51,732 nt of DNA from Candidatus Olsenella pullistercoris (GTDB lineage Bacteria; Actinomycetota; Coriobacteriia; Coriobacteriales; Atopobiaceae): assembly GCA_019116525.1 (NCBI GenBank), contig DXBM01000011.1:1-51732 (forward strand), in the 5' to 3' direction. The position numbers and the translations under genes were made by a program. This document shows, one piece after another, positions 33,728-49,039 of the stretch. Position 1 is the first letter of the stretch. The number at the start of each line of letters is the position of its first letter. The notes beneath the pieces are model-generated. The model was not told where the DNA came from and did not search any database. It was given only the letters and a program-made list of their open reading frames with translations.

Positions 33728-33748
33728 CCAGATCGCGGACGAGAAGCC

Positions 33749-34918: not shown

Positions 34919-34927
34919 TGCGACCTC

Positions 34928-35521
34928 CTAGAGCGTCTGTGTGGTGTCGCAGTAGCTGCAGGTTACGGTGGAGCCCGCTCGGCCTGAGAGTGGCGCTCGG
35001 CAGCCAACACACTTCTTGGTAACGTTGGCGGGCCGGTCAGCCTGCGCAGCACCCTTAGGCTTCCGCCCGCCTCCAAAGAGGGATCCGACGAGGTCCCTGG
35101 CCCCATCGACAACGTTGGTTATCTCAGGAGGAAGGTCCTCTTCCGCCCCAATGCCAGGCAGGTCTCCGTCGGCTGCCAGCGCAATGGCGCGTGCCCATCG
35201 CTCGGCCAGTCTCCGCGGATTGGTCGGGAAGGACAGCATGATGGTCTCGTCCCTAAAGGCGACCTGCAGACAGTAGCTGGAGCGGTACTTGGTGGCAAAG
35301 GCCTGCGGAACGTCGTTTTGCCGCTGGATTTTTGCGAGGGGGCACCGTTTGAGCATGCGCGCCTTCTTGAATAAACCCTGAGAGGCGCTCGCAACGAGAA
35401 TGAGGTTCTGATTGGTGAGCACAAGCTCGTCGAGGGTCTCGCCGTCCGCGTCGTTGCCCAGCTTGACCGGTTGCTCCTGCATGACAACGAGCTCGCCCGG
35501 AGCGAGATTGTAGTCCTCCAC
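34928..35521 (-). CDS. PH-like domain protein with C-terminal zinc ribbon
   Basis: A 197-residue protein. The first about 110 residues are beta-rich and resemble a GRAM/PH-like fold (ELVLTNQNLILVASAS, LAKIQ, LQVAFRDETIMLSFP, ERWARAI). A linker leads to a zinc ribbon, C-x2-C (KCVGCRAPLSG) and C-x2-C (VTCSYCDTTQTL). It is translated just ahead of the SPFH gene. The ensemble resembles the YdjI-region membrane-stress genes, with the zinc ribbon and SPFH parts split between two proteins; this comparison is tentative. Confidence 0.75.
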   Translation of the reverse strand: MEDYNLAPGELVVMQEQPVKLGNDADGETLDELVLTNQNLILVASASQGLFKKARMLKRCPLAKIQRQNDVPQAFATKYRSSYCLQVAFRDETIMLSFPTNPRRLAERWARAIALAADGDLPGIGAEEDLPPEITNVVDGARDLVGSLFGGGRKPKGAAQADRPANVTKKCVGCRAPLSGRAGSTVTCSYCDTTQTL

Positions 35522-35576
35522 CTTACCCTCCGTTTCTGCGTGTGCCGTTTCATCCTAGGAGGGAAGCCCTGGCGTT

Positions 35577-35597
35577 TCCTCAGTTGCCAACTGAAAT
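35577..35597. repeat. CAGTTGCCAACTG palindrome
   Basis: TCAGTT (35580-35585) and AACTGA (35589-35594) form a small hairpin with loop GCC, flanked by TTTCC and AAATAC. It lies between the DUF4143 ATPase stop and the zinc-ribbon gene start and belongs to the same family as 31921-31973 and 36956-36988. Confidence 0.55.
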
Positions 35598-35638
35598 ACG
35601 AGGTGCGACGGGAAGTGAGGCAGGCTACGGGGACGTCG

Positions 35639-36802
35639 CTACACGATCTGTGCCACGTCCGCGAGGGCGACGACGTTGCCCATCGAGGTGGCAAACGACT
35701 CGTTGCCTGCGTACACTACGTGGCGATGCGTGGTGGGCACGCCCATCAGCTCGCCAAGCTCGCCCAGACTCTTGAAGAAGCGCGGGTTATAGGTTGCTGA
35801 TGACTTGACCTCTATGATGTCAGCGGGTGCAGCACCTCGCTCGATGATGAGGTCAACCTCCTTGTTCGACGAGTCTCGCCAGTAGTACAGCTTTGCACGA
35901 CGTCCCCGCGCGGCAAATGCCTTCGCCATCTCGGTGACCACCGCCGTTTCAAAGAGGGCCCCGTGCTTCTCAGACAGCACGACCTCTTCGCGCTCCTCCA
36001 TGCCCAGCAGGCAGCATGCAAGGCCCGTGTCGCATAGGTAGAGCTTTGCCGTCTTTACGAGCCGTTTGCCGTAACTGCGGTAGTACGGGTGCAGGCGGAG
36101 CGTGATGAAACTCGCTTCGAGCACGGAGAGCCAGCTCTCGATGGTCTTGGGCGAGATGCTGCAGTCGCGTGCCATGTCCTCCTTGTTGAGCATCTGTGCC
36201 GTTCGGTCCGCGCAGAGGCCAAGAAACCGCTCGAACTCAGCAAGCTTGAGGATGCCGGAGCCTGTTCGTACATCGCGCTCTAGGTATGTTTGAACGTGGC
36301 TGGGATAGTAGTCTGCCGGGTCGATCCCCACATCATAGATGCGCGGATACCCTCCCGTCAGAAGCCACTCGTCAACGGATGCGGGCCGTAGCCCTGCCTC
36401 GTTAAGCTCATGCAGAGAGAGGGGCAGCAGGTGGAGAACCGCCGCTCTTCCGGCGAGTGATTGGGATATTGCCTCCATCAGCAGGAAGTTCTGGGACCCG
36501 GATAGTATGAACTGTCCGGGAGCGTTGTTTTTATCGACTACGCCCTGGATATAGGAGAAAAGGGAGGGCGCGCGCTGCGCCTCGTCAAAAATGACCCGGT
36601 CGTCGTAGAGGTCGAGAAACGCGCGGGGGTCGTTCTGCGCGAGGGCGCGAACGTCCTCGTCCTCAAGCGTCACGTAGCGATAGTGGGGAAAGAGGCTCCT
36701 GACGAGGGTCGACTTGCCGCTTTGGCGCGGGCCGGTCACGGTAACGACGGGGAATTTCTCTGCCATGGAGAGAATCTTTGGAGCAAGGTCGCGCCTTATC
36801 AT
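35639..36802 (-). CDS. DUF4143-type P-loop ATPase
   Basis: A 387-residue AAA-type ATPase. Walker A is TGPRQSGKSTLV near residue 25, Walker B VIFDEAQ, followed by LSGSQNFLL (sensor). The C-terminal half carries a winged-helix-like part (MARDCSISPKTIESWLSVLE) and a PD-(D/E)xK-like motif (KEVDLIIERG ... IIEVKSS). These proteins are frequent in anaerobe genomes, often as multiple copies of unclear function. The ATG at 36802 is preferred for the AGGGGGG before it; ATGs at 36817 and 36826 are upstream. Its promoter region holds four 23-bp iterons, suggesting autoregulation. Confidence 0.85.
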   Translation of the reverse strand: MIRRDLAPKILSMAEKFPVVTVTGPRQSGKSTLVRSLFPHYRYVTLEDEDVRALAQNDPRAFLDLYDDRVIFDEAQRAPSLFSYIQGVVDKNNAPGQFILSGSQNFLLMEAISQSLAGRAAVLHLLPLSLHELNEAGLRPASVDEWLLTGGYPRIYDVGIDPADYYPSHVQTYLERDVRTGSGILKLAEFERFLGLCADRTAQMLNKEDMARDCSISPKTIESWLSVLEASFITLRLHPYYRSYGKRLVKTAKLYLCDTGLACCLLGMEEREEVVLSEKHGALFETAVVTEMAKAFAARGRRAKLYYWRDSSNKEVDLIIERGAAPADIIEVKSSATYNPRFFKSLGELGELMGVPTTHRHVVYAGNESFATSMGNVVALADVAQIV

Positions 36803-36846
36803 GTGCCCCCCTCGCATGGTGGTCAATCGGCCGCAATATCTCGGAC

Positions 36847-36938
36847 TACCGGAATTTCAAGAAATAGATTACCGGAATTTTATACCTATGAGTACCTGAA
36901 TTATCAGAGTCAGATTACCGGAATTTCATCACTAGAGA
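36847..36938. repeat. Four iterons with exact 23-bp period
   Basis: TACCGGAATTT-type cores begin at 36847, 36870, 36893 (TACCTGAATTA) and 36916, each exactly 23 bp apart, about two helical turns. The stretch is AT-rich and lies 45 bases upstream of the DUF4143 ATPase start, between it and the divergent anchored-protein gene. The arrangement is that of a multi-site operator. Confidence 0.85.
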
Positions 36939-36955
36939 GCAGTGCCCAAGCATCG

Positions 36956-36988
36956 CCGGTTTCCTCAGTTGCTAACTGAGGAAACCGG
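36956..36988. repeat. 33-bp hairpin with 15-bp perfect arms
   Basis: Arms 36956-36970 and 36974-36988 are exact reverse complements with loop GCT; the core is CTCAGTTGCTAACTGAG. It stands upstream of the anchored-protein gene and 18 bases beyond the iterons. No T-run follows. Third copy of the CAGTTGCCAACTG-type palindromes in this region. Confidence 0.7.
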
Positions 36989-37053
36989 CTACCAGGCAAA
37001 TCACAATGGCCTACAGATTGGATTTCATTCAGGTTCGTCGAATGGAGGGTGGT

Positions 37054-38109
37054 ATGGACTGGGAGCCCGCGGGCAGGAGCGCCGACAAGCCAAAGGGCAA
37101 GAAGCGTCGCGGCTGCCTCGTTGCTATCGTGGTCGTGGTGGCGCTGCTCGTGATTGCTGGCGTCTCTCGCTGTGGCGGCGGAGGAGACGAGCGGCTTGAC
37201 TGGCCCACGAGTGGGCTTGCAACGATGCTGCCGAAGCCGGACTCGGATGCGGGGAGCGTCATCGCTAATAGCGACGAGTCTTTCTCTGCGAGCGTTGATG
37301 ACTACACGCAGGAGAAGTACGACTCCTATGTGGCTCAGTGTCAGGAGATGGGCTTCACTGTTGAGGTCGAGAACGGTACGGGAACATACGCTGCGTATTC
37401 AGAAGAGGGCTATCACCTGAGCCTCACATTCTTCGACTCTTCTGTCGGCAGCATGAACGTAACCCTGGACGCCCCCATTGAGATGAGCACAATCTCTTGG
37501 CCTGCTGTCGGTGCCGGCTCGCTGGTGCCCGCTCCGACCTCGACGACGGGCAGTATCGACTCCGACAGCTCGGGCTTCTTCTTCGCCTACGTGGGCGAGA
37601 CGAGCGCGGAGGACTACGCTGCCTACGTTGACGCGTGCTCTGATGCGGGGTTCAACGTTGACTACGACCGCGGAGATACGTGGTACGGAGCTGATAACGC
37701 AGACGGCGTCTCTCTGCGTGTTGAGTATCACGGTTTCAACACCATGTCGGTCCGCGTGGACGTGCCGGATGGCACGGAGGCCGAGCCCGCGGCAGAGGGC
37801 GAGGCGGTGAGCACGGAGACGACCACGCCCACCACTGATGCGTCGGGGGTCAACCCTGACTTCAAGGCGACCATGGACGGGTACGAGAGCTACATCAACG
37901 AGTACATCGATTTCATAAACACGTACAACAGCGACCCCAATAATGTGGTTGGTATGCTGGCGCAGTACAACGAAATGATGCAGGAGTATGCCAACTGGAC
38001 CGAACAAATTGATGCCATCGACGAGAGCTCTCTGTCGGCAGCAGACCTTGCCTACTATACGGAGGTTATGGGTCGGGTGAACGCCCGCCTGCTGGAGGTT
38101 GGGCAGTAG
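37054..38109 (+). CDS. Membrane-anchored extracytoplasmic protein with two similar domains
   Basis: A 351-residue protein. After a basic N-terminus (KPKGKKRRG) one membrane helix (about 21-38) is followed by Cys and Gly residues, then two repeated beta-domains: LDWPTSGLATMLPKPDSDAGS... and ISWPAVGAGSLVPAPTSTTGS..., each with a YDSYVAQCQEMGF or YAAYVDACSDAGF helix. A Thr/Pro/Glu-rich spacer and a helical end (DFKATMDGYESYINEYIDF) follow. It resembles a DUF6591-type protein from memory; the function is unknown. The ATG at 37054 has GGAGGG upstream; a frame extension to 37006 lacks a site. Confidence 0.78.
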   Translation: MDWEPAGRSADKPKGKKRRGCLVAIVVVVALLVIAGVSRCGGGGDERLDWPTSGLATMLPKPDSDAGSVIANSDESFSASVDDYTQEKYDSYVAQCQEMGFTVEVENGTGTYAAYSEEGYHLSLTFFDSSVGSMNVTLDAPIEMSTISWPAVGAGSLVPAPTSTTGSIDSDSSGFFFAYVGETSAEDYAAYVDACSDAGFNVDYDRGDTWYGADNADGVSLRVEYHGFNTMSVRVDVPDGTEAEPAAEGEAVSTETTTPTTDASGVNPDFKATMDGYESYINEYIDFINTYNSDPNNVVGMLAQYNEMMQEYANWTEQIDAIDESSLSAADLAYYTEVMGRVNARLLEVGQ

Positions 38110-38133
38110 TCGAACAGCACGCTAGAGCCAACC

Positions 38134-38169
38134 AAAGGGCGGCGCGCCGAGGGCGGTGCACCGCCCTTT
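38134..38169 (+). terminator. GC hairpin after the anchored-protein gene
   Basis: AAAGGGCGG (38134-38142) pairs with CCGCCCTTT (38161-38169), with an inner palindrome GGGCGGTGCACCGCCC (38151-38166) as an alternative. It begins 24 bases after the stop. The run after it is CTCGTCT, so U-tract support is weak. Confidence 0.55.
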
Positions 38170-38308
38170 CTCGTCTGCCTTAGGAATCGGCTCGCCTGCG
38201 GCGGCCTTGGCTTTGTTGTCTAGGCGCGCGAGTAGTATGAAAACGGTGCCGGACAAGTATCTGCATTGGGCCCGAGCCATCGGATCCGTGCGTGGGGGAG
38301 GGTCTTCG

Positions 38309-40825
38309 ATGTCAAAGGTCAAAATCGTAAGCAATCCGTATCGTCGCACGACGGTATTCCTTAGCTGGGACGGGAAGACATGGAATCCCGTGGACTCCGC
38401 AAACAACCCCAACAGCCAGCTGCTGAGCAAGCAATTCTCGGAGGGGTTCTTTCCTTTTAAATCGGCCCAGATTGTTGAGGTGATTCTCTCCGAGTACGGT
38501 GGAGAGGAACCCGTTGTGGTTGAGTTCGAGGGGCCTGACGACGAGTGGGCGGAGCTTGTGGGCGCCTGCGACGAGACGGGTCTCAACGGACGGGTCGCAC
38601 TAACCAGGGGGAGTCGAACCCTCGCTAATGCGCGGGACATACTGCCATTTGTCCGGGATGAGTTCGATGGCGTCTACTCCATCATCGCGGGGCAGGCAGA
38701 CGGGCGCCCCAAGACCCGGGAGCTGCTGAGAAAGTTCCGTGACGCGTCGAGCGACGTGGTGCCCGTCTGTGTGGTGGGCAATTACAGCTCAGGCAAGTCG
38801 ACCTTTATTAATGCACTCATTGGTGCCGAGCTGCTTCCAAGTAGCGACAGGCCGCTAACCGCTCGTGTGTTTCGCATAGAACGCTCCGATCAATCCGATC
38901 GGGCAAGCATCACGCTGGACTACTCCGGTGGGTCGCTTCGTTTTTGGTTTGGCGAGAAGGGGATTGACATCGACTCTCCTGCTTCGTCAAGTCAGCTTGC
39001 TGAGGAAGTGGCCGCTTGCGTTCAGCCCGACGACGCCTTGCCTGTCATTGATCGTGTTCGCAAGGCTTTGACCGTCATCAACAAATACAATCCTACTCCG
39101 GAGGAGGGCCTAGGCGATCTTGTTGAGGTTAGGGCCCCTTTTCGGGAGGACTGGTGGATGCGGGGCAAGAAGCTCGTCATCTTTGACACTCCGGGCTCCA
39201 ACTCGAATTCAAACGCCCGGCACCTTGAGGTGCTCAAGGAGGCAATGCGCGGCATGTCGGACGGCCTCCCCATCTACGTGACTGAGTACAGCTCCCTCGA
39301 TAGCAACGACAACGCGGAGCTCTACGATGAGATTCGAGAAATCGAGGCACTTGACGAGCGCTTTGCCATGGTCGTGGTCAACAAGGCGGATACGGCGGAC
39401 CTTCCCGAGGACGATCAATCTCAGGAGATGGCCGAATACGTCCTTAACACTCCGGTGGTTCACAACCTCTATGCGCACGGTGTCTACTACGTCTCTTCTA
39501 TCATGGGTCTTGGCGCCAAGACGGGTGGAGGCTTTGCCGATCGCCACTACGACCGCTGCTTCCGGCAGCTGCTTTCAAGCTATGATGACCCGGAGGACAG
39601 GTACTACACCCGCCTTTATCGCTACGACCTTATGCCGAGGCAGTTGAGAAAGAGGGCGCTCGCGGAGGCGGAGGGAAGCTCAAATCGCGTTCTCGCCAAC
39701 AGCGGATTGTTCTGCGTTCAGCGCGGGATTGAGGACTTTGCTACCAAATACTCGGTCTATAACAAGTGCTCGCAGTCTGACGTCCTGCTCCACGAGCTTA
39801 TTCAGAATACGGATGAGGCCCTTGAGGATGTGGCGGAGCGCGTTGAGGAGAGCCGTCGCCTTGGGCAGGACGATCTTGACGCAAGTAAGGGGGCTTGCCT
39901 AAGCAACCTCAGGGGAGAGTCAGTATCTCTTAGAACGACTGCAGTTGAGGGCTATCTTCCCCATATGAACGAGCAAGACTATCTTGAAGGAGCTGCCCTA
40001 AACTCAGACTTGCTACGTGCTTGGGAGAAAGACTTCTCCGAGACGCGTCAGAATGAGACGGGTGTTGACGAGAAGGGCAGGGCTGCTGCGGCTTCGCGTG
40101 CGGCCATTGGCTCAAAGCTGCGCGAACGTGCCACGAGTATGTTTGACTCCCGCGATTTTCTTGGCTTGGGTAGCCTGGTGGCAAGCTTTGCCAACGATGT
40201 TACCAAGGCGCTCGAGAGCCACTCGGATGAGGTGGACGCTAGAAGGGAGGCGGACAGGGCTGTTTCGGAGGACCTTCTCGAAAGGATACGCGAGCACTTT
40301 GACTCCGAGCTTGATCGAGCGTTTGTTGAGGTGGAACAACGTTCGCGGGAATACTGGGGTCGGTGCTCCGAGGAGGCGAGAGCCGCCCTTCTCGGCCTGA
40401 TTTCCAACGGGGAGGGCATCGATGAGGAAAGACGTGGCATGCTACGCGACATCATCATCGATTTCCATCCGCTGAGTCTGTCGGATTCTGTGCCGGAGAT
40501 CAAGGAGATTAGAAATCCCTTTGATCCCAACAAGCTATGGAAGGCCCCCATCACCATCCAGCACAACCTCGAGCTCTCGAGGAGGGTTTCTCGCTGGCGC
40601 TCTGCAGTTGAGCCTGCTCATGAGGATAGCTATACAACGTGGCTCAACGAGCTGACAGACAAACTCGCTGAGAACATCGTGGACCTCAACCCTGAGCTCA
40701 AGAGAAAACTGGACTTCATCAAGCAGAACGAGAGAGAGCTGGCTGACCTGCAGGTCAAGCGCGATCGCCTGCGCCGTGCCGAAGAGCGTGTCTCCTTGTT
40801 CATGTCTTGGCGTGGGGAGGACTGA
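38309..40825 (+). CDS. Dynamin-like GTPase of the GTPase/HerA/toxin cassette
   Basis: An 838-residue large GTPase. Its first about 140 residues are an unrecognised N-terminal domain. G1 is GNYSSGKSTFIN (157-168), switch/G2 threonine lies in PLTARVF, G3 is FDTPGSNS (about 291-298) and G4 NKAD (about 358-361), the pattern of bacterial dynamin-like proteins. The remaining about 450 residues are mostly helical with a coiled-coil end (KQNERELADLQVKRDRLRRAEERV). No membrane helix is obvious. The ATG at 38309 has GGGGGAGGG upstream; the frame opens earlier at 38156 without a site. The HerA-type gene starts one base after its stop, so both proteins are probably made together. Base composition is more AT-rich than in the flanks. 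Confidence 0.85.
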   Translation: MSKVKIVSNPYRRTTVFLSWDGKTWNPVDSANNPNSQLLSKQFSEGFFPFKSAQIVEVILSEYGGEEPVVVEFEGPDDEWAELVGACDETGLNGRVALTRGSRTLANARDILPFVRDEFDGVYSIIAGQADGRPKTRELLRKFRDASSDVVPVCVVGNYSSGKSTFINALIGAELLPSSDRPLTARVFRIERSDQSDRASITLDYSGGSLRFWFGEKGIDIDSPASSSQLAEEVAACVQPDDALPVIDRVRKALTVINKYNPTPEEGLGDLVEVRAPFREDWWMRGKKLVIFDTPGSNSNSNARHLEVLKEAMRGMSDGLPIYVTEYSSLDSNDNAELYDEIREIEALDERFAMVVVNKADTADLPEDDQSQEMAEYVLNTPVVHNLYAHGVYYVSSIMGLGAKTGGGFADRHYDRCFRQLLSSYDDPEDRYYTRLYRYDLMPRQLRKRALAEAEGSSNRVLANSGLFCVQRGIEDFATKYSVYNKCSQSDVLLHELIQNTDEALEDVAERVEESRRLGQDDLDASKGACLSNLRGESVSLRTTAVEGYLPHMNEQDYLEGAALNSDLLRAWEKDFSETRQNETGVDEKGRAAAASRAAIGSKLRERATSMFDSRDFLGLGSLVASFANDVTKALESHSDEVDARREADRAVSEDLLERIREHFDSELDRAFVEVEQRSREYWGRCSEEARAALLGLISNGEGIDEERRGMLRDIIIDFHPLSLSDSVPEIKEIRNPFDPNKLWKAPITIQHNLELSRRVSRWRSAVEPAHEDSYTTWLNELTDKLAENIVDLNPELKRKLDFIKQNERELADLQVKRDRLRRAEERVSLFMSWRGED

Positions 40826-40826
40826 C

Positions 40827-43800
40827 ATGGGGATTAAGGGCCTCGTCAAGAAGGCTGCCGGTAAGGCGGGAAATGCGGTATCCAAGCTTTCGTCGCTTAG
40901 TCCCGATCAGCTGGAAAAGATCGAGGACGCACGCGAGAAGTACCTAGGGACGATGCCCTCTGCGGATGACCCGGTTGCCAACGAGCTGACGAGCCGTCTT
41001 ATCGCGGCGGCGGGGGTCGAAATCTACGACGCGTACCTACCCCAGATCAGCAAGGTCTACGTCCCCGCTGAGAGCACCGCAGAGTATGGAGGTCCGTTTG
41101 ACTCCGCTCACAACGAGCGCTTCATCAACATCACCAAGTGGGTGAGTGACCCGGAGGAAAACAGCCTCGAGAAGCTTGTTAACGTCTATGACGTGCTCTC
41201 CAACGAGCGCTGCAACATTGCCTTGGTATTTCGCAGGACAAGGGACGCCGCCCGGGTCTACCTTGGTGTGATTGACACGGAGAACTCCGACAACAACGTC
41301 AACGTTGAATCGTACATACGCCGACTTGAGGGCGCGCTGCGGGGAAACTTTCCTGGCTCCGAGTGGTCGGGCGGGGTTGTCTCGGGTAAGATTCCCTGCC
41401 TAGGTAGCTTGCGTGACGTGTCTGTTGCCTCGGTTTCCAACATTCCCACTGAGAAGTCGGAGAGGTTCGTAAGCCAGACTATCGAAAAACTTCTAGATGG
41501 GATTGTTCCACGAAGCCGTCGCGAGGAGTACACGGTTATTCTGCTTGCCACGCCGACGCTTGACGTGGAGGAGCAAAAGCTGCGCCTGCAGCAGCTCTAC
41601 ACCGGGCTGGCCCCGTACGCTTCCTGGCAGACCAATTACACCTATCAAGAGTCTAGGTCGGAGGGGTCATCTGCAACGGTTGGGGTGAATGCCGGTTTGA
41701 GTGTGGGGCGGCAGGCTGGAACCAACCAGTCGCTGAGCGCTGGCGGGTCGGTTGCGGACTCAGAGAATCGGGGCGTAACGGATTCCGAGAGCGATTCTCA
41801 GCAGGTCTCAGTTTCGGAGTCGCAGAGTGATTCGACGTCGCATTCTGATGCGCAGAATGAGTCAGAAACTAGCGCCTGGAATGTTGGCGTGGGGGCGGGG
41901 GTCCCTACCACTCCGATTCAGGTTGGAGGAGGTGTCTCTCAGGGTAAGACCCGAGGAGCCAGTGTTACGGACACAACCACGCAAACGGCGACAAAAGGGC
42001 TAAGCGAAACCGTTGGAACGACTACCGGCCGTGCCGTCTCCAATACGCTCGGCCGGGCGGTCACCAGGTCGCTCACTAACACGGTTGGCAACTTCGCCAG
42101 CACAAACCTTGGTGGAAACTTTGGCGTCAACTTTGCGCGTTCGTCAACGGTGACGGCCACCATTGGCAAGAATGAAGGAATCACTCAGAACCACACTAAC
42201 TACGCTATTAAGCATGCGCTCGAGCTTCTAGAGAAGCAGATGGCGCGCCTTGAGCAGGGCTCAGCCCTGGGTCTGTGGGACTTTGCGGCCTACGTATTGA
42301 GCGAGGACGTGACTACCGCTAGCAACGTTGCGCACTCCTATCTCGCTCTCACGCAGGGCGAGGAGTCGTTCATGTCGCTGGCGTCGGTGAATCTGTGGCG
42401 CGGCGATGTCTCGGGTGAGAGTGCGGCGCAAACCATCTGTGAGTATCTGTGCGATTTGCGCCATCCGCTCTTTGGGCTCAATCCAGATATTACGAAGAAC
42501 CAGCCCAACGTGCTGCCGTATCCGGCTGTCGTTACGGCTACGACCACGTTGACAGGCAAGGAGCTTGCGCGCTCTCTCAACTTCCCTCGTAAGTCGATTG
42601 CTGGGCTTCCGGTCTTTGAGTGCGCGAGCTTTGGAAGGAACGTCGCAACGTTTGACGAGCGCCCACTGGGTCAGGGCGTGCGACTGGGAAACATCTATCA
42701 CATGCACCGGGCGGAGCCGACGCCCGTTCTTCTCGACAAGGATTCTTTGACGTCGCACGTGTTCGTGACGGGTAGTACGGGCTCGGGAAAGAGCAATGCG
42801 GTCTACCGCCTGCTCGAGGGCGCCGTTGCACAGGGCGTGGGCTTCCTTGTTGTTGAGCCCGCCAAGGGCGAGTACAAGGACGTCTTTGGGTGCGATGAGG
42901 GTGTTAGCATATTCGGAACCAACCCGGAGTATGCCCCGCTTCTCAAGCTCGACCCGTTCAGTTTTCCGAAGGGGGTGCACGTCCTCGAGCACCTCGATCG
43001 CCTGATTGAGATATTCAACGTTTGCTGGCCTATGTATGCGGCGATGCCTGCGGTTCTCAAGAACGCGGTTGAGAAGGCATACGAGGACTGTGGGTGGGAA
43101 CTCGCTGCATCGAGGAACCCCTACGGCGATGGCCTGTACCCATGTTTTGCAGACGTTGCCCGTAATGTGCGCGAGATCATCGACTCAAGCGAGTACGACG
43201 CGGAGAACAAAGGGGCGTACAAGGGCTCGCTGCTTACGCGTCTCAACTCGCTGACGACGGGAATCAATGGTACGGTGTTCTCGTCGGATGAGATTGATGC
43301 GGGTGAGCTTTTTGATGGGCGGACGATTGTCGACCTGAGTCGGGTTGGTTCAAGCGAGACGAAGTCCCTGCTCATGGGCATTCTCGTGCTCAAGCTTCAA
43401 GAGCATCGCATGGTGCAGGGGATGGTACACAATTCCGGTCTGCGACATCTGACCGTGCTTGAAGAAGCGCACAATCTGCTTAAGCGTACCTCGACCGAGC
43501 AGCCCGCTGAGGGCGGCAACCTGCTTGGCAAGAGCGTCGAGATGCTTTCAAATGCGATTGCTGAGATGCGCACGTACGGAGAAGGGTTTGTCATTGCCGA
43601 CCAGGCTCCCGGGCTGCTTGACGCATCGGTGATTCGCAACACCAACACGAAGATTGTGCTTCGCCTTCCCGAGGGCGGGGACCGAGAGCTCGCGGGAGGT
43701 TCGGAAGCGCTTACCGATGCCCAGGTTACAGAGCTGGCAAGGCTTCCTCGCGGCGTTGCTGCGGTCTATCAGAACGATTGGATTGAGGCAGTTCTGTGCA

Positions 43801-44297
43801 AGATCGACAAGGCGGAGCACGGGGAGAGGCGGTATGAATATCGCCCGCCGACAGATAGCGTCCTGGAACGAGACGCCATGACAGCTCTGGAAATTGCCTC
43901 GCTGCTCAGCAAGTGCGAGAGCGTTACGGATGAGGCGAAGTTGCGAGATTATCGAGAGAAGATGTCCGGTCTTGGGCTGAGCGCTGCTCGGCAGGTTGCA
44001 GTGCTAGAGACGCTTCGGAATCCGCCTGCAGAGCCGCGTATGACAAAGCTTGCCCCGATTATGGGCGAACTATTTCCTGATACGAAGGCTGCCGTGGTCC
44101 AGGCTGTTAATGCGTCTAGTGAAATGCGCGAATGGACCGAGCGCGCGCGTGACGCCTTGCAGAGAGAGTGCGTGCAGGTTGAGCGTGGGCAGGTTGAGCG
44201 CGACATTATTCAAGCGCTTTTTGTCGGCTACCTGTACGTAGAGCAAAACGATGCCCACAAGTTGGAGAGGTGGGCTCGCGAAGGAGGGTTGTGGTGA
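40827..44297 (+). CDS. HerA/DUF87-type ATPase with Ser/Gly-rich insert
   Basis: An 1156-residue protein. Residues 1-275 are an alpha/beta region without a family I recognise. Residues about 276-450 are extremely rich in Ser, Thr, Gly, Gln and Asn, with repeated S-x-S and T-x-T patterns. From about 640 a HerA/FtsK-like motor follows: Walker A GSTGSGKSNAVY (about 648), VVEPAKGEYKDVF, Walker B LTVLEEAHNLLKR (about 873) and GFVIADQAPGLLD with arginine-rich RLPEGGDREL. HerA-type motors pump DNA or protein; in toxin loci they are linked to export or DNA processing. GGGGAGG precedes the ATG. It overlaps the toxin gene by four bases. Confidence 0.85.
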   Translation: MGIKGLVKKAAGKAGNAVSKLSSLSPDQLEKIEDAREKYLGTMPSADDPVANELTSRLIAAAGVEIYDAYLPQISKVYVPAESTAEYGGPFDSAHNERFINITKWVSDPEENSLEKLVNVYDVLSNERCNIALVFRRTRDAARVYLGVIDTENSDNNVNVESYIRRLEGALRGNFPGSEWSGGVVSGKIPCLGSLRDVSVASVSNIPTEKSERFVSQTIEKLLDGIVPRSRREEYTVILLATPTLDVEEQKLRLQQLYTGLAPYASWQTNYTYQESRSEGSSATVGVNAGLSVGRQAGTNQSLSAGGSVADSENRGVTDSESDSQQVSVSESQSDSTSHSDAQNESETSAWNVGVGAGVPTTPIQVGGGVSQGKTRGASVTDTTTQTATKGLSETVGTTTGRAVSNTLGRAVTRSLTNTVGNFASTNLGGNFGVNFARSSTVTATIGKNEGITQNHTNYAIKHALELLEKQMARLEQGSALGLWDFAAYVLSEDVTTASNVAHSYLALTQGEESFMSLASVNLWRGDVSGESAAQTICEYLCDLRHPLFGLNPDITKNQPNVLPYPAVVTATTTLTGKELARSLNFPRKSIAGLPVFECASFGRNVATFDERPLGQGVRLGNIYHMHRAEPTPVLLDKDSLTSHVFVTGSTGSGKSNAVYRLLEGAVAQGVGFLVVEPAKGEYKDVFGCDEGVSIFGTNPEYAPLLKLDPFSFPKGVHVLEHLDRLIEIFNVCWPMYAAMPAVLKNAVEKAYEDCGWELAASRNPYGDGLYPCFADVARNVREIIDSSEYDAENKGAYKGSLLTRLNSLTTGINGTVFSSDEIDAGELFDGRTIVDLSRVGSSETKSLLMGILVLKLQEHRMVQGMVHNSGLRHLTVLEEAHNLLKRTSTEQPAEGGNLLGKSVEMLSNAIAEMRTYGEGFVIADQAPGLLDASVIRNTNTKIVLRLPEGGDRELAGGSEALTDAQVTELARLPRGVAAVYQNDWIEAVLCKIDKAEHGERRYEYRPPTDSVLERDAMTALEIASLLSKCESVTDEAKLRDYREKMSGLGLSAARQVAVLETLRNPPAEPRMTKLAPIMGELFPDTKAAVVQAVNASSEMREWTERARDALQRECVQVERGQVERDIIQALFVGYLYVEQNDAHKLERWAREGGLW

Positions 44298-44842
44298 GTT
44301 TCAGGCATGGTTCAGAAGTCCGTGGAAGAAATGAGGTTGCTGGAGCGCGCGAGGAATCGGGGTCGTTTAACCCGGACGCGCGTATTGGGCGGTCTAGTGT
44401 AGAGGTGAGTGAGGGTGCGAGTGCGTTCTCGCCCGATAAGCGGGTTGAGGTGTATCACGGAGGTGCTTATCGAGATGTGTTCATTTCCGGTGGAGGGCGA
44501 GAAGCACATCACATTCCCGCCAACGAGGTGAATGGGCTTGAATCGAGAGACGGCCCGTGTATCTCGATGGATGCGAAGGACCATCGAAAGACGGCGAGCT
44601 GCGGTATATCAAAAGAGGCTCGGGAATATCGCAAAATGCAGCGCGAGCTAATTGAGGCCGGCGATTTTAAGGCTGCTCTTAAGATGGATATCGACGATAT
44701 CTTGTTTAGCAACAAGTTTGACGATGCGGAGAAATACAATGCTGGCCTTCATGAGGCCGCCGATTATGCAGAACGCATGGGTTTGATTCCCGATCAGGAA
44801 GGACTGTGGGATGCTCCAACTAACAGCCAATCCCCTAACTAA
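44294..44842 (+). CDS. Putative HNH/EndoVII-like nuclease toxin
   Basis: A 182-residue protein. The N-terminal 60 residues are flexible and hold two related motifs, SFNPDARIG (24-32) and AFSPDKRVE (44-52). The C-terminal part reads like a polymorphic-toxin nuclease: REAHHIPANEVNGL (His72, His73), GPCISMDAKDHRKTASCG (His97), then EYRKMQRELIEAGDFKAAL and MDIDDI, a pattern I associate with HHH/EndoVII-like toxins. GTG at 44294 is chosen for the AAGGAGGG before it; it overlaps the ATPase stop (GTGA). The next gene, in another frame, overlaps its last 32 bases and would be the immunity gene. Nuclease activity is inferred from the motif alone. Confidence 0.7.
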   Translation: MSFRHGSEVRGRNEVAGAREESGSFNPDARIGRSSVEVSEGASAFSPDKRVEVYHGGAYRDVFISGGGREAHHIPANEVNGLESRDGPCISMDAKDHRKTASCGISKEAREYRKMQRELIEAGDFKAALKMDIDDILFSNKFDDAEKYNAGLHEAADYAERMGLIPDQEGLWDAPTNSQSPN

Positions 44843-45200
44843 CGTGGGTCCCATCGAGCTCGGCGCCACCCGCGAGGCCGTCCGCGCTGCTGCGGGTCCC
44901 GAGTTCGAGGAGTTCAGGAAGTCCCCCTCCAGCGAGAACACGACCGACGACTACGGTTCGTTTCACGTCTACTACGACGAGAACGACGCCTGCGTCGCGG
45001 TGGAGGTGTTCCCGGAAAACGAGGTCGTGGTCGATGGGGAGGTCGTCTTCCCAACCACGCTAGAAAAGGCCGCCGCCGCAATCCCGTCCCTTGAGCGCGA
45101 TGACGACGGGCTGATCTCAACCGAGAAGTCGATTGGAATCTACGCGCCCTACGGCGAGATGGAGAGCATCCTGTTCGGTGTGCAGGGCTACTACGACTAG
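44811..45200 (+). CDS. Putative immunity protein to the adjacent toxin
   Basis: A 129-residue, strongly acidic protein with no known motif: NPLTNVGPIELGATREAVRA, DDYGSFHVYYDENDACVAVEVFP and SIGIYAPYGEMESILFGVQGYYD. Small acidic proteins encoded right after a toxin are typical immunity proteins. GGAAGG lies 6 bases before the ATG, inside the toxin gene, and the two coding regions overlap by 32 bases, which would couple their translation. It ends 31 bases from the convergent EamA gene. Confidence 0.7.
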   Translation: MLQLTANPLTNVGPIELGATREAVRAAAGPEFEEFRKSPSSENTTDDYGSFHVYYDENDACVAVEVFPENEVVVDGEVVFPTTLEKAAAAIPSLERDDDGLISTEKSIGIYAPYGEMESILFGVQGYYD

Positions 45201-45231
45201 CGGTTCTTCTCGCCGTCGCCTCTTCCCGCCC

Positions 45232-46095
45232 TCACTCCGCCGCGAGGTACGCCCCCGCTGCCATGATCGCCAGGGCAACCCAAAACGACGGCTCCGGCCA
45301 CTCCCGGAAAAGCGCGAGCGACAGCCCCGCGCCGATAAACGGCGCAATCGCGTAGTAGGCGCTGGTCTTTGCCGCACCCAGCTGCCGCTGGGCGTAGACG
45401 TAGAAGAAGATGCTGAGGCCATAGGCGAGAAAGCCCAGAAGGAGTGACCCGAGCACATAGGGCAGCGCCGGGAGGGACTCGCCCACCGCGAAGGCTATCA
45501 CAAGAGAGCCGAGGCCTGAGCCAAACCCCTTGAGCACCACGATTTCCAACGGGTCGCTCTGCGACATCATGCGTGTGCAGTTGTTCTCGAATCCCCAGCA
45601 GACGCAGGCGGCAAGCACCAGCAGGGAGCCGGAGGAGAAGCTCAGGCTCGACGCGTCCTCGAAGGAGAGGATTAGGCTCGAGAGGGTGATGAGGCCAATG
45701 GCGATCCACAGGCGCCGGCTGATCGCCTCCCTGAACACGAGGAGCGCAATCAGCGAGGTCGCCACGATTTCAAAGTTATTGAGGAGCGAGGCGTTGGCCG
45801 AGGTCGTGGTCGCGAGACCCGCCATGAGGCAGATGGGCGCCGCTATGTCCAGGGCGATCATCCCCACCGTGTAAGGAAGGTCCTTGCGGGTGAGCCGCTG
45901 CTCGGAGGCGCCGAGGCCCGCCTGCCGTCGGATGACGCCCAGAAGCAGCATGCCCAGTCCGGCGCCCAAATAGAGCAGGGCTGCCATCATCGTGGGAGAG
46001 ACATCGCCGAGCAGGACCTTGGAGACGGGGGAGCTGATGGCATAGAGCGCCGCCGCAAGAAGTGCCCAGACGATGGAGACTCGCCTCTCGCTCAC
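45232..46095 (-). CDS. EamA/DMT family transporter
   Basis: A 287-residue drug/metabolite transporter with ten hydrophobic helices in two EamA halves (IVWALLAAALYAISSPVSKVLL and LLVLAACVCWGFENNCTRMM). The DMT signature NFEIVATSLIALLVFREAI ends half one, and the second half ends YYAIAPFIGAGLSLALFREWP. The substrate cannot be told; export of an amino acid or metabolite is usual. The GTG start has AAGGAGG six bases upstream. It appears single and convergent with the toxin cassette. Confidence 0.9.
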   Translation of the reverse strand: MSERRVSIVWALLAAALYAISSPVSKVLLGDVSPTMMAALLYLGAGLGMLLLGVIRRQAGLGASEQRLTRKDLPYTVGMIALDIAAPICLMAGLATTTSANASLLNNFEIVATSLIALLVFREAISRRLWIAIGLITLSSLILSFEDASSLSFSSGSLLVLAACVCWGFENNCTRMMSQSDPLEIVVLKGFGSGLGSLVIAFAVGESLPALPYVLGSLLLGFLAYGLSIFFYVYAQRQLGAAKTSAYYAIAPFIGAGLSLALFREWPEPSFWVALAIMAAGAYLAAE

Positions 46096-46218
46096 ATGAC
46101 CTCCTTGCTCCGGCCGTCGTAACGCGAAAAGGTGGGCGCATGGCGCGAAGGTAGCGTCCTCACATCAGGGCCCGGACGCGAGGCGGCGTCCGGGCCCGTT
46201 GTCCTTCTCGCCAAGCGC

Positions 46219-46251
46219 GATGATACGAAGGGACTGTCCCTTCGTATCATC
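46219..46251 (-). terminator. 15-bp hairpin touching the stop of the reductase fusion
   Basis: Arms 46219-46233 and 46237-46251 (GATGATACGAAGGGA type) are exact reverse complements with loop CTG. The right arm abuts the TAG stop (46253-46251). It closes the large reductase gene on the minus strand, but no U-tract follows. Confidence 0.6.
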
Positions 46252-48830
46252 TAGCAGGTTGCTCCGCCGACCACGGTCTTGTTGAGGATGGCCTCCTTGT
46301 CGATGGGGGTCGTCAGCAGCCTCTCCTGCACGTAGTCAAAGCCGAGGCGCGCCACGGTGTCGGCAAAGCGCTCGCCGCTCTGCCCCTCGTCGCGGAAGAA
46401 GAGGATGGCGCGCTCCACGACGTCCATGACCTCGTCCTCGTTGGTGAAGATCTTCTCGAGCGCGCGTCCGTGCGCGGTCTTCTTGCCCCAGCGTCCGCCG
46501 ATGTAGACCTTGTACCCGGCGAGACCCTCGGTCACGGCCCCGAACGGGCACGCGCCCACGCAGCGTCCGCAGTGGTTGCACGCAGAGCCGTCGATCATGA
46601 CCTTGCCGTCCGGCCCGATCTGCGCGTCGCCCATCGGGCATGCCCTCACGACCTGGCAGACCTTGCACGCGCGGCACTTCTCGAGGTCAACCTGCGGCAC
46701 GCGCTGGCCAACGATGCCCAGGTCGTTGAGGTCGGGCTTGACGCACATGTTGGGGCACCCGCCCACGGCGATCTTGAACTTGTGGGGAAGCTCGACGCCG
46801 TGGTAGCCAACGTAGAAGCGCTCATGGAGCTTCTCGGAGAGGCCAAAGGTGTCGATGAGCCCGTACTGGCACGTGGTTCCCTTGCAGCTCACGACAGGGC
46901 GAACCTTGGATCCGGTGCCGCCCGCGTCGAGGCCGTGCTCCCGCAGGAACGCGATGCACTCCTCGATCCGCTCATAGCGGACCCCCTGGATCTCGAGCGT
47001 GAGACGCGTGGTCATCGTGACCTCGCCGGAGCCAAAGCGCTCGCTCGCCTCGGCCACGACCTTCTGCTCCTCGGCGGCGAGCTTGCCGTTGCGCGTGATG
47101 ACGCGCACGTTGAAGACGTCGTCAAAGCGCTTGTCCTGGAGGCAGCCCAGCCCCTTGAGGCGCTTGATCTCCGCCGCCGGGAGCTTTGCGCCGGCCGGTC
47201 GCGGCACGTGCACCTCGTTGAAGGTGACGCCACCCTCGAGCACACGCGTTGCCGTGTAGCCGGCGGCCTTGAGGCGGTTCTGCGCAAAGTAGCCGCGCTT
47301 GCCCTTGGCACAGACGAGAAGGAGCTTGGCGTTGCGCGGCACCCCGCCGATGCCGTCGGGCCCGATCTTGGTGAGGTCCACCCAGCGGGCGCCGGGAATC
47401 GTGGGCGCGGGCAGCACGTCAACGACCTCGTAGCCCTCGGCGGCGCCGGCGGCGTACTCGGCGGGCGTGAGGCTCTCGAGCTCGCCGTCGAGCTTGTTCT
47501 CAAGGGTGTAGGCGGCGGTGACGAGCGGGTTGATGGCGGTCGAGAAGGGCGGCGCGTAGGAGAAGTCCATCATGTCGAGGTCGTCCACGGAAAGCCCCTG
47601 GCTGAGCGACACGACCATCGCGTCCACGACCTTGTCGACGGCCCCTGCGCCGAGCACCTGAACCCCCAGCAGCCGGCGCGTCTTCCTGCACGCGATGAGC
47701 TTGATGAAGAAGCTCGACGAGCCAGGGTAGTAGTGAGCCTTGTCGTCCACCACGCAGACGACCGAGACGGGGTCCATGCCCGCCTCGCGCGCCGCGGCCT
47801 CGGTGAGGCCCGTGCGGCCCCCGTTCAGGGTGGGCAGCAGACGAACCACGCCCGTGCCGAGCGCGCCCGGGTAGGCGGTTGGCCTGTCGGTGAGCGTGAG
47901 GGCCAGGGCGCGCGCGGCGATGTTCGCGGTCGAGCCCATCGCGCTCCACTGCGGCGCGCCGGTGACGCGATTGCGGACCTCGGCGCAGTCGCCGGCGGCG
48001 TAGACGTTGGGGAGGTTGGTGGCCATGTGCTCGTCGACAAGGACACAGCCCTTGAGCAGCTCAATCCCCGATCCCTCGAGCCAGGCGGTCGCCGGGCGGA
48101 TGCCGATGGCGAGAACGACCACGTCGGCCGGGAGCGTCCCCGCGCTCGTCTCAACGCGCTCGGCGCGCCCTTCTCCTGTGATGCCCGTGAGCGAGGCAGA
48201 GGTAACGACGCGCACCCCAGCGGCCTTGAGCTGGCGCTTGGCGAAGTCGGCCATCTCGGGGTCAAAGACGTTGGGGAGAATCTGCGGCATGGCGTCGACC
48301 ACCGTGACGGAGAGGCCCCGGGCGAGCAGGGCCTCGACGCACTCGAGCCCGATGAAGCCGGCCCCCACCACCACGGCGCGACGACAGCCGTTCTCCTCCA
48401 CGTAGTCCCGCAGCGCGCAGGCATCGTCGGGCGTGCGCAGGCAGAAGACGCCCGGAAGGTCCGTCCCCGGAACGGGCGGCACGAAGGGCGTCGCGCCCGT
48501 TGCGATGACCAGGCGGTCGTACTTCTCGGTGCCCGCGGAGCCGTCCGCCCTGCGCACGCTCACCTCGTGCGCGGCGGCATCGAGCGCGGTGGCCTCCACG
48601 CCCGTCTCGACCTCCACGCCGGTGAGCCCCTCGTACGCCTGGGGCGTGTTGACGATTAGCCCCTCGCGCGAGGGGATGTCACCGCTCACGTAGTATGGCA
48701 GGCCGCAGCCCGCGTAGCTGATGTCCTGACCCTTGGTGATGACCTTGACCTCTGCCGAGCGGTCGCGGCGCTTGATCTTTGCCGCTGCCTTGGTTCCGGC
48801 AGCGACTCCGCCAACAATCAGGTACCTCAT
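46251..48830 (-). CDS. CoA-disulfide reductase-rhodanese-siroheme reductase fusion
   Basis: An 859-residue, four-part protein. Residues 1 to about 440 are an FAD/NAD(P)-linked CoA-disulfide reductase-like part (YLIVGGVAAGTKAAAKIKR, active Cys42 in SYAGCGLPYY, VVVGAGFIGLECVEALL). A rhodanese domain follows with Cys507 in the loop VCAKGKRGY. Then comes a siroheme/4Fe-4S sulfite- or nitrite-reductase-like domain (VVSCKGTTCQYGLID near 648 and GGCPNMCVKPDLND near 690). Two ferredoxin clusters (KCRACKVCQVVRACP, CNHCGRCVGACP) precede the C-terminus. Together these suggest NAD(P)H-driven reduction of sulfite, polysulfide or persulfide in one chain. ATG at 48830 has GAGAGGAA upstream; the frame extends to 49025 into the promoter region. 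Transcribed alone, divergent from the NifX gene. Confidence 0.85.
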   Translation of the reverse strand: MRYLIVGGVAAGTKAAAKIKRRDRSAEVKVITKGQDISYAGCGLPYYVSGDIPSREGLIVNTPQAYEGLTGVEVETGVEATALDAAAHEVSVRRADGSAGTEKYDRLVIATGATPFVPPVPGTDLPGVFCLRTPDDACALRDYVEENGCRRAVVVGAGFIGLECVEALLARGLSVTVVDAMPQILPNVFDPEMADFAKRQLKAAGVRVVTSASLTGITGEGRAERVETSAGTLPADVVVLAIGIRPATAWLEGSGIELLKGCVLVDEHMATNLPNVYAAGDCAEVRNRVTGAPQWSAMGSTANIAARALALTLTDRPTAYPGALGTGVVRLLPTLNGGRTGLTEAAAREAGMDPVSVVCVVDDKAHYYPGSSSFFIKLIACRKTRRLLGVQVLGAGAVDKVVDAMVVSLSQGLSVDDLDMMDFSYAPPFSTAINPLVTAAYTLENKLDGELESLTPAEYAAGAAEGYEVVDVLPAPTIPGARWVDLTKIGPDGIGGVPRNAKLLLVCAKGKRGYFAQNRLKAAGYTATRVLEGGVTFNEVHVPRPAGAKLPAAEIKRLKGLGCLQDKRFDDVFNVRVITRNGKLAAEEQKVVAEASERFGSGEVTMTTRLTLEIQGVRYERIEECIAFLREHGLDAGGTGSKVRPVVSCKGTTCQYGLIDTFGLSEKLHERFYVGYHGVELPHKFKIAVGGCPNMCVKPDLNDLGIVGQRVPQVDLEKCRACKVCQVVRACPMGDAQIGPDGKVMIDGSACNHCGRCVGACPFGAVTEGLAGYKVYIGGRWGKKTAHGRALEKIFTNEDEVMDVVERAILFFRDEGQSGERFADTVARLGFDYVQERLLTTPIDKEAILNKTVVGGATC

Positions 48831-49039
48831 GGCGTTCCTCTCCCTGGGCGCCGCCTTGCGCGACGCGTCTACGGCAACCATCGTATATCCGCCGAGGGTC
48901 GTGGCCTCGCGGTTTTGCGTGGACGGCGCGCGCTGCCCCGCGCCCGGGCGTGCTCGCCGCCAGCATCCGCCCGCGTGCGGTGCCCTGTGGCAGAATGTGA
49001 GCAACCGACACGGGCGTGAGCCCAATGAGAGGAGCTTCC

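Follow-up and report, generated by a model that had tools for sequence, protein, structure and literature searches.

A dynamin-like GTPase and a HerA/FtsK-family ATPase as the constant part of a putative polymorphic toxin-immunity system in Candidatus Olsenella pullistercoris and its relatives

We analysed a 51,732-nucleotide contig of Candidatus Olsenella pullistercoris (DXBM01000011.1 of assembly GCA_019116525.1; the whole of this stretch is called the window here) that holds a cassette of four + strand genes, in which a putative toxin-immunity pair follows two motor proteins. The first gene encodes a dynamin-like GTPase (38309-40825, 838 amino acids) and the second an ATPase of the HerA/FtsK superfamily (40827-44297, 1156 amino acids), followed by a candidate polymorphic toxin (44294-44842, 182 amino acids, with a GTG start at 44294) and a candidate immunity protein (44811-45200, 129 amino acids); successive genes are spaced by a 1-base gap, a 4-base overlap and a 32-base overlap. 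A first-pass annotation made from the letters of the window alone had drawn this layout exactly, and its naming of a dynamin-like GTPase and a HerA-type ATPase held up in Pfam (Dynamin_N at E = 5e-18; DUF87/HerA at 4e-11, or 3.6e-11 for DUF87 before rounding); its description of the fourth protein as acidic agrees with the net charge of -18 that we computed. No model of Pfam, NCBIfam or PADLOC was matched by the toxin or the immunity protein, even at E = 1; we assigned the toxin from an alignment of 7 class members and a Streptomyces match, and the immunity protein from the recurrence of its family after the same toxin class.

The two motor proteins appear intact in their catalytic motifs. The GTPase has an N-terminal stretch from an SNPY motif (residues ~1-130), a GTPase domain and a long C-terminal part, and its domain carries GNYSSGKST, DTPG and NKAD, which we take to be the G1, G3 and G4 motifs; all three are intact in the Dynamin_N domain of the window protein and invariant or nearly so in 35 aligned sequences, with deviations in single homologues (for example at locus L029), and among PDB entries compared by sequence the bacterial dynamin-like protein 2j68 scores best (6.6e-13). 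In the ATPase, an N-terminal part (~1-275) and a variable Ser/Thr/Gly-rich region (~275-450) precede the ATPase core (~630-1000), where GSTGSGK and TVLEEAH presumably represent Walker A and Walker B; both, together with a conserved arginine, are invariant in 39 aligned sequences. Compared with solved HerA proteins the window ATPase has in addition the long N-terminal part and the Ser-rich region, and it matches only parts of the core, best in HerA 4d2i (1.4e-10 by sequence). Its similarity to the serine-rich protein family NF033849 (ser_rich_anae_1) is more extended (E = 2e-27, residues 285-993), but at 95 bits against a cut-off of 650 it is a relative of that family and not a member, and it likewise falls outside CedD (NF053655), which it resembles over part of the ATPase core (67.6 bits against a cut-off of 600). 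The Ser/Thr/Gly-rich region (window 41649-42176, residues 275-450) is flanked on each side by a conserved stretch in which small and hydrophobic residues alternate. A candidate amphipathic hairpin formed from residues ~285-297 and ~429-440 has a high moment, but other places in the protein score higher, and we did not retain it as established.

To evaluate how constant this pair is, we drew on three samples. A pattern scan of genome contigs with the window ATPase returned 334 relatives, the best 80 of which were kept and, with the window, make up 81 loci (L numbers), so that counts from this set lean to near relatives. A GTPase homologue lies immediately 5' of the ATPase gene on the same strand in 80 of the 81, the exception being L080, where a 138-amino-acid frame separates the two; the GTPase frame is cut by the contig start in L032, L034, L049 and L053, is read as two frames in L020 and L077, and is shorter in L030, L067 and L071. 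The second sample, independent of the pattern scan, comprised 347 genomes of the window's order (G numbers), in which each protein was searched separately, and several of its carriers coincide with loci of the first set. Here the ATPase was found in 22 genomes (E <= 1e-50) and the GTPase in 14 (E <= 1e-40), all 14 of which also have the ATPase, with the two genes side by side by coordinates in 14 of 14 (the GTPase frame of G516 holds a stop, and that of G606 matches in two pieces); linkage of this kind makes the association more than chance. Of the other eight ATPase genomes, one (G526) contains a GTPase homologue that falls short of the cut-off (~20% identity), and in the remaining seven the similarity is mostly confined to the ATPase core. 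The third sample, 296 genomes across the phylum, held the ATPase in 5 at the same cut-off. By the names on their records, the relatives come from Olsenella, Collinsella, other Coriobacteriia, Bifidobacterium, Streptococcus, Carnobacterium and Floccifex, as well as from many Clostridia-type bins and one Bacteroidales bin.

What follows the pair is, by comparison, variable. The DNA 3' of the ATPase gene can be read in 80 of the 81 loci (L036 stops at the contig edge), and all 80 have a toxin-like gene there on the same strand (in L021 after a 157-amino-acid gene), with the first downstream gene showing the window's 4-base overlap in 41. The toxins have a median length of 220 amino acids and their partners one of 125. 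At E <= 0.01 the 80 toxins matched 12 Pfam families, with overlapping matches to Colicin-DNase (34), WHH (33), Endonuclea_NS_2 (18) and LHH (6) and rarer ones to HNH (3), Ntox15 (1), NERD (1) and the metallopeptidase family DUF6782 (1); the window's class is without a Pfam match. A small gene occupies the immunity position in 78 of the 80, 73 of them called as frames and 5 recovered by translated search, and 71 of the 73 frames were scanned, yielding matches to DUF6985 (23), YezG-like (18), SMI1_KNR4/SUKH (13), PoNi (1) and Tdi1_C (1), several of which are named immunity families.

To compare toxins with their partners, we grouped both by single linkage, the toxins by their last 110 residues, into classes that are broad: 8 for toxins and 10 for immunity proteins. 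In 73 of 73 pairs the toxin class follows from the class of the immunity protein, and the mutual information (1.38) equals the toxin-class entropy, the best of 2,000 shuffles reaching 0.47. An earlier clustering of whole toxins had merged 70 of the 80 into one class, chained by their leaders, and was replaced by this grouping. The first-pass annotation had proposed that if the downstream genes varied like toxin-immunity pairs the GTPase and ATPase would be a conserved carrier, and had allowed for the opposite case of motors that are single and unlinked to toxins; our counts strongly bear out the former and run contrary to the latter.

The leaders that chained the toxins are themselves informative. 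Among the first 70 residues of the 77 toxins shorter than 400 amino acids, matches at E <= 0.01 number 323 between classes and 309 within them, and a crude leader pattern (DPDKR-like or IKP-like) is present in 63 of the 80. Leader similarity rises with ATPase identity when toxins of different classes are compared, in 1,907 pairs drawn from 76 loci (Spearman 0.47; the three toxins of 400 or more amino acids and L021 were left out), the best of 999 within-class permutations giving 0.22, and mean ATPase identity is 0.584 within toxin classes and 0.567 between them. Shared ancestry of whole loci contributes to this correlation; co-variation of leader and ATPase is nonetheless the behaviour expected of a leader that is read by its carrier. 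None of the 80 toxins has a signal-peptide-like segment. Two very long toxins, at L028 (7904-9799, 631 amino acids) and L042 (6629-8467, 612 amino acids), carry a strongly hydrophobic segment that separates the leader from the C-terminal domain.

A single pair of loci, L032 and L040, captures the exchange most directly. Their ATPases are 94% identical, and their DNA is 95-97% identical through the part of the GTPase gene that the contigs contain, the ATPase gene (other than ~150 bases of the Ser-rich region that are not alike) and the first 40 toxin codons. Past about codon 40, one continues into an Endonuclea_NS_2-type toxin with a YezG-type partner and the other into a WHH-type toxin with a DUF6985-type partner, as typed by sequence class, and similarity returns at 86-89% some 0.3 kb past the immunity gene. 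By alignment, then, the two loci differ by a block swap of toxin domain plus immunity gene. At L002 and L004, which occupy the same chromosomal hotspot as the window's cassette, ATPases that are 84% identical precede toxins of different classes. A common N-terminal leader on unrelated C-terminal domains, each with an adjacent, class-specific immunity gene, is what places these loci, as far as their sequences can tell, among polymorphic toxin systems.

The window's own toxin conforms to this plan. It has a leader with FNPDAR / FSPDKR motifs (~1-52) and a C-terminal domain with an HH.P...GP.I.M...DH pattern, and toxins of its class stand at 7 of the loci, with a matching immunity gene called as a frame in six and recovered by translated search in the last, L003. 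Residues 55-145 (91 residues) are 46% identical to a near-C-terminal stretch of a Streptomyces protein annotated as a polymorphic toxin-type HINT domain. An AlphaFold model built with 7 sequences has a mean predicted local distance difference test score (pLDDT) of 60.6 and is fairly confident only at ~90-170; residues 1-26 and 29-69 score below 50, with the leader modelled as disordered, and a profile of the toxin, searched by sequence against the PDB, returned no credible match. The histidine-bearing motif and the counterparts at other loci suggest that the window toxin is a nuclease, so that the nuclease-like label of the first-pass annotation stands as a matter of class, through the Streptomyces match and the nuclease families found at the same position, and the nuclease fold of this protein itself is a prediction.

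Immunity genes were also found apart from toxins. With toxins called at E <= 1e-6, the immunity family occurs in 7 of the 347 genomes of the order and the toxin in 3. Genomes G436 (a single contig), G074 and G513 carry immunity genes 91, 91 and 89% identical to the window's, and no ATPase, GTPase or toxin was found in them at the cut-offs used; G596 has a weak immunity match (31%) and likewise no toxin match. In the first three genomes the gene sits between the kinase and CoA-disulfide-reductase-like (CoADR) genes that border the window's cassette, accompanied in G513 by SPFH, zinc-ribbon and DUF6591 genes. The pairwise ratio of nonsynonymous to synonymous substitution (dN/dS) among these three toxin-free genes is 0.145-0.172, and that of a neighbouring transporter, window against G436, is 0.105. 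Retention of immunity without toxin or motors, at low dN/dS, is what one would predict for a toxin that arrives from other cells, and toxin-free immunity genes are described as a mark of competition between bacteria in the parts of two papers cited here (PMC12247911, PMC10539506).

These genes share a chromosomal hotspot with the cassette. In the window it spans 32018-49025, from a kinase-type gene (32018-33727, + strand; Pkinase, assigned via the homologue at L002:723-2345) to the CoADR gene (46251-49025), and it recurs with variable content at L162, L173, L174, L002, L004 and L005, where it holds cassettes with different toxins and also immunity genes without toxin. Similarity between the window and G436 starts at the immunity start codon, and that with G513 ~20 bases earlier (by eye). 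The window toxin ends in a tail, APTNSQSPN, that is missing from six aligned homologues and arises because the toxin's reading frame extends into the immunity gene; G074 has another upstream gene that overlaps the immunity gene in this way and gains a similar tail at the same point. Base composition changes here too. The content of guanine plus cytosine (GC) is 0.567 in the GTPase gene, 0.579 in the ATPase gene and 0.533 in the toxin gene up to the immunity start, and 0.645 and 0.686 in the EamA and CoADR genes to the right; at third codon positions (GC3) the immunity gene (0.815) resembles its right-hand neighbour EamA (0.844), with the toxin at 0.529 and the motors at 0.67. From the GC3 contrast, the point at which similarity to G436 and G513 starts and the unshared toxin tail, the 32-base overlap appears to be a scar of recombination, where an incoming cassette joined an immunity gene already in place, rather than translational design, and we place the apparent junction at 44790-44842 (+ strand), from the toxin tail and the similarity breakpoint in relatives. 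The first-pass annotation had described the cassette as more AT-rich than its flanks, which holds for the motors and the toxin against the genes to the right; the immunity gene, at a GC of 0.615, is an exception, and the AT-rich zone begins before the cassette, near 36 kb.

More distant relatives, several of them on plasmids, show how far the arrangement extends. On plasmids of Escherichia coli, Treponema and Lactococcus, two genes annotated as dynamin family and one or two small proteins precede the ATPase, which is followed by an HNH nuclease (by annotation) and then by a SMI1/KNR4 protein or, in Lactococcus, a hypothetical one. This second, two-dynamin architecture is found at L082 (3773-12172, plasmid pTW10590_133), L083 (326-10244) and L084 (1-10184); WYL regulator genes lie upstream on the Treponema and Lactococcus plasmids (L083, L084), and the E. 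coli pTW10590_133 locus was found in 1 of 5,426 E. coli genomes in a near-identity search. On plasmids of Exiguobacterium and Ruminococcus albus the ATPase has an upstream partner that carries a hypothetical label and shows, by eye, an NPY-type start like that of the window GTPase. Plasmids of Streptomyces, Planktothrix and Acinetobacter carry a more distant ATPase with other neighbours, and in the looser relatives L108, L109 and L111 the ATPase is followed by long frames of unassigned kind. The link between ATPase and toxin is thus wider than the single-GTPase form, but it does not hold in every distant relative.

Polymorphic toxins are a main currency of bacterial competition, and the route by which they reach the target defines the system. 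Seen at the level of sequence are the constant pair, the variable toxin domain with its matching immunity gene, block exchange, co-variation of leader and ATPase, and immunity without toxin, and on this basis we lean, with modest confidence, towards a polymorphic toxin-immunity system in which the dynamin-like GTPase and the HerA/FtsK-family ATPase form the constant part and would also deliver the toxin. The step from constant part to delivery follows the logic that constant components of polymorphic toxin systems serve effector trafficking, to which they are linked in a cited passage of a paper on conflict systems (PMC7159879). The leader would act as an address tag read by the ATPase, the GTPase or both; the ATPase ring might unfold, thread or load the toxin; the GTPase could act at the membrane by opening, budding or tethering it; and the toxin would then reach neighbouring cells, with the immunity protein neutralising it in the cell that makes it, in sibling cells and in relatives left with the immunity gene alone. 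The first-pass annotation had offered several functions, and among them export or loading of the toxin fits our results best; phage defence, which it also raised, is less supported given the immunity genes that stand without toxin or motors, although a scan of flanking genes described below leans towards it.

A more specific proposal, which we put forward tentatively, is that of an undescribed delivery machine outside any numbered secretion type, in which a HerA ring would read a short leader (of FDPDKR or IKP..FW type) and thread or load the toxin while the GTPase deforms the membrane, common to Actinomycetota, Bacillota and Bacteroidota (one metagenome contig) and having a two-dynamin form on Lactococcus, Treponema and E. 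coli plasmids. We found no description of a dynamin-HerA-toxin-immunity system in the open-licence papers searched, and one may exist elsewhere. If delivery is indeed what the pair does, it would be a seemingly overlooked module whose genes are common (334 relatives in one pattern scan); that the pair travels with many different toxins, in carriers most of which (of 23) have no type VII markers, points to a delivery module, which would give bacterial dynamin-like proteins a concrete, testable cargo and make the short leader a ready handle on the idea.

Within this preferred reading, a variant in which the GTPase buds toxin-carrying vesicles that the ATPase loads, without any channel, seems doubtful and is drawn purely by analogy. 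It would suit a cassette that lacks a channel gene and whose motors both lack a clear trans-membrane helix, two-dynamin relatives whose small partner has a C-terminal hydrophobic stretch (by eye), and hosts that are monoderm as well as diderm, in both of which it is possible in principle. Its model is LeoA of E. coli, a dynamin-like GTPase that a cited report connects with the release of toxin in association with vesicles (PMC4159319), but LeoA matches are weak, at 5e-6 and 4e-9 in two-dynamin relatives and ~0.001 for the window GTPase. The LeoABC dynamins are alike in being dynamin-like GTPases tied to toxin output and unlike in that the cited part of that report mentions no HerA, toxin or immunity gene of the cassette's kind, and the PADLOC matches are weak only.

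Several observations weigh against the preferred reading. The absence of a channel gene from the cassette leaves the export route out of sight, and neither the GTPase nor the ATPase has a clear trans-membrane helix (at L005, exceptionally, one C-terminal stretch scores 2.2). The crude leader pattern is missing from 17 of the 80 toxins, the window's included, several of which carry close variants such as FSPDKR, and at L055 and L057 neither called frames nor translated search gave a recognisable immunity gene. Among the looser relatives, the short loci L094, L112 and L116 have no same-strand toxin candidate after the ATPase and L113 has merely a 68-amino-acid frame, and the occurrence of the wider HerA family in both monoderms and diderms is awkward for one simple export machine. 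Pairwise dN/dS cannot date the constraint on toxin-free immunity genes to after toxin loss, which it may partly predate, and such genes could instead guard against an arriving mobile cassette. Finally, the WYL regulators beside three plasmid relatives recall defence loci, and 147 flank proteins (up to 2 per locus from 80 loci) match 251 PADLOC families at E <= 1e-10, against 39 for 137 control proteins from stretches of 20 carrier genomes, which is a rough comparison.

These last two points bear on the alternative that the cassette is an intracellular anti-phage or anti-plasmid unit, in which foreign DNA or membrane damage would be sensed or captured by the motors, and the fourth protein would keep a nuclease effector inactive until a trigger is met. 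Anti-phage systems that combine a HerA ATPase with a nuclease partner are known from the part of the literature cited here (PMC11291478), the window ATPase matches PADLOC HerA (1.9e-14) and mad8 (6.2e-14), the GTPase matches LeoA/LeoBC at ~0.001, and the DNA is AT-rich and mobile-looking. The PADLOC HerA models cover parts of the core, and against NF042943 the ATPase scores 35.6 bits where the cut-off is 800. The flank result, which led us to lower slightly our confidence in toxin delivery and in the undescribed machine and to raise somewhat that in defence, is itself qualified: the 25 commonest flank matches are kinase-type models (PD-T4-6, mad6, MkoA) in 4-5 proteins, models of a kind that come as many overlapping ones, and the control DNA too held defence genes such as cas1 and an AbiLi-like gene. 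By Pfam, the commonest families among the 147 flank proteins are kinases (5), DUF6782 second toxins (4), ABC transporters (3) and integrases (3), and neither kinases nor integrases are among the 25 commonest in the 137 controls. The main point against defence is that immunity genes remain where toxin and motors were not found; in addition, the effectors include metallopeptidase-type proteins, the immunity families are those of polymorphic toxins, and an effector triggered inside the cell does not need a leader common to unrelated toxins. The anti-phage HerA systems (such as HerA-DUF4297) share with the cassette a HerA ATPase that adjoins a nuclease gene and differ from it in that the loci here have swappable toxins, immunity genes, a leader and a GTPase. 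We regard defence as unlikely, though it is the main rival.

An addiction module, in which the toxin-antitoxin pair stabilises a mobile cassette and toxin-free immunity genes serve as anti-addiction genes, would account for the sporadic distribution of the ATPase (22 of 347 and 5 of 296 genomes), for relatives carried on plasmids and for immunity without toxin; yet addiction would work without a GTPase, a HerA or a leader, it is the motors that stay constant, and the toxin domains are of the polymorphic class, so that we consider it improbable.

We also evaluated type VII secretion (T7SS) as a general export route and rejected it, as EssC and WXG100 are missing in most of 23 carrier genomes. 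WXG100 is present in 7 of the 23, and EssC is over its cut-off in 2 and gives long matches in 4; some EssC-search match was obtained in 22, most of the rest being shorter and FtsK-level. A T7SS is likely in some carriers: EssC matches pass the cut-off in G628 and G629 and are long in G405 and G621, and in G624 a weaker, intermediate match lies beside two WXG100 genes. Toxin and immunity families are common with effectors of the b type (T7SSb), as in Endonuclea_NS_2 with a YezG-like partner, which we take to be comparable to EsaD/EsaG. That the toxins are ordinary type VII (LXG-like) effectors, with the GTPase-ATPase pair as an accessory, is nevertheless very improbable, given these counts, a window genome (81.5% complete) in which neither EssC nor WXG100 was found, and the absence of LXG from the 12 Pfam families found among the 80 toxins. 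Systems of the type VIIb/LXG kind are alike in having an FtsK/HerA-superfamily motor and effectors defined by their N-terminal part, and unlike in that our loci lack LXG, coincide with WXG100 in 7 of 23 carriers, include a GTPase and have relatives that are also diderm.

Polymorphic toxin systems as described (PMC3482391) offer the closest likeness, with a conserved N-terminal part, a variable C-terminal toxin domain, an adjacent cognate immunity gene, module exchange and overlapping families. The trafficking modes named in the cited part of that article are Sec, the type I and type III to type VII secretion systems, PVC, TcdB/TcaC and PrsW, and a dynamin GTPase with a HerA ATPase is not among them; the toxins here are also short, as is their leader.

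Other genes recur around the cassette. A Ser/Thr kinase cluster is found at 17 of the 81 loci, with 15 of its 18 instances upstream, a macro-domain-like protein (by eye) near 10 loci and DUF6591 near 8. In the window the upstream neighbour is a DUF6591 protein (37006-38109, + strand, Pfam 8.5e-89), whose sequence cluster lies upstream in 6 of the 81 loci, the window included, making it recurrent and not constant. Also within the hotspot, at 33749-35521, an SPFH-SHOCT protein adjoins a zinc-ribbon-like protein, and the same two are seen at the hotspot in L004 and L174.

A second pair lies further downstream in at least 18 of the 81 loci (by clustering), consisting of a protein of ~219-233 amino acids and one of ~98. 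A motif filter found HELRHA or HEMRHA in such a protein at 17 loci, and the DUF6782 matches of four sampled flank proteins are of this kind; at L060, L047 and L046 the downstream examples are leader-bearing proteins with a metallopeptidase motif. At L100 (genome G516) a 324-amino-acid frame after the ATPase has leader-like motifs and a cysteine-peptidase-like stretch (by eye), and the start of another leader-bearing frame follows it. Hypothetical upstream partners that seemingly have an NPY-type N-terminal stretch were seen at L085 (4380-10342) and L089 (4370-10557), and the downstream protein of L089 has glycine-rich repeats (by eye).

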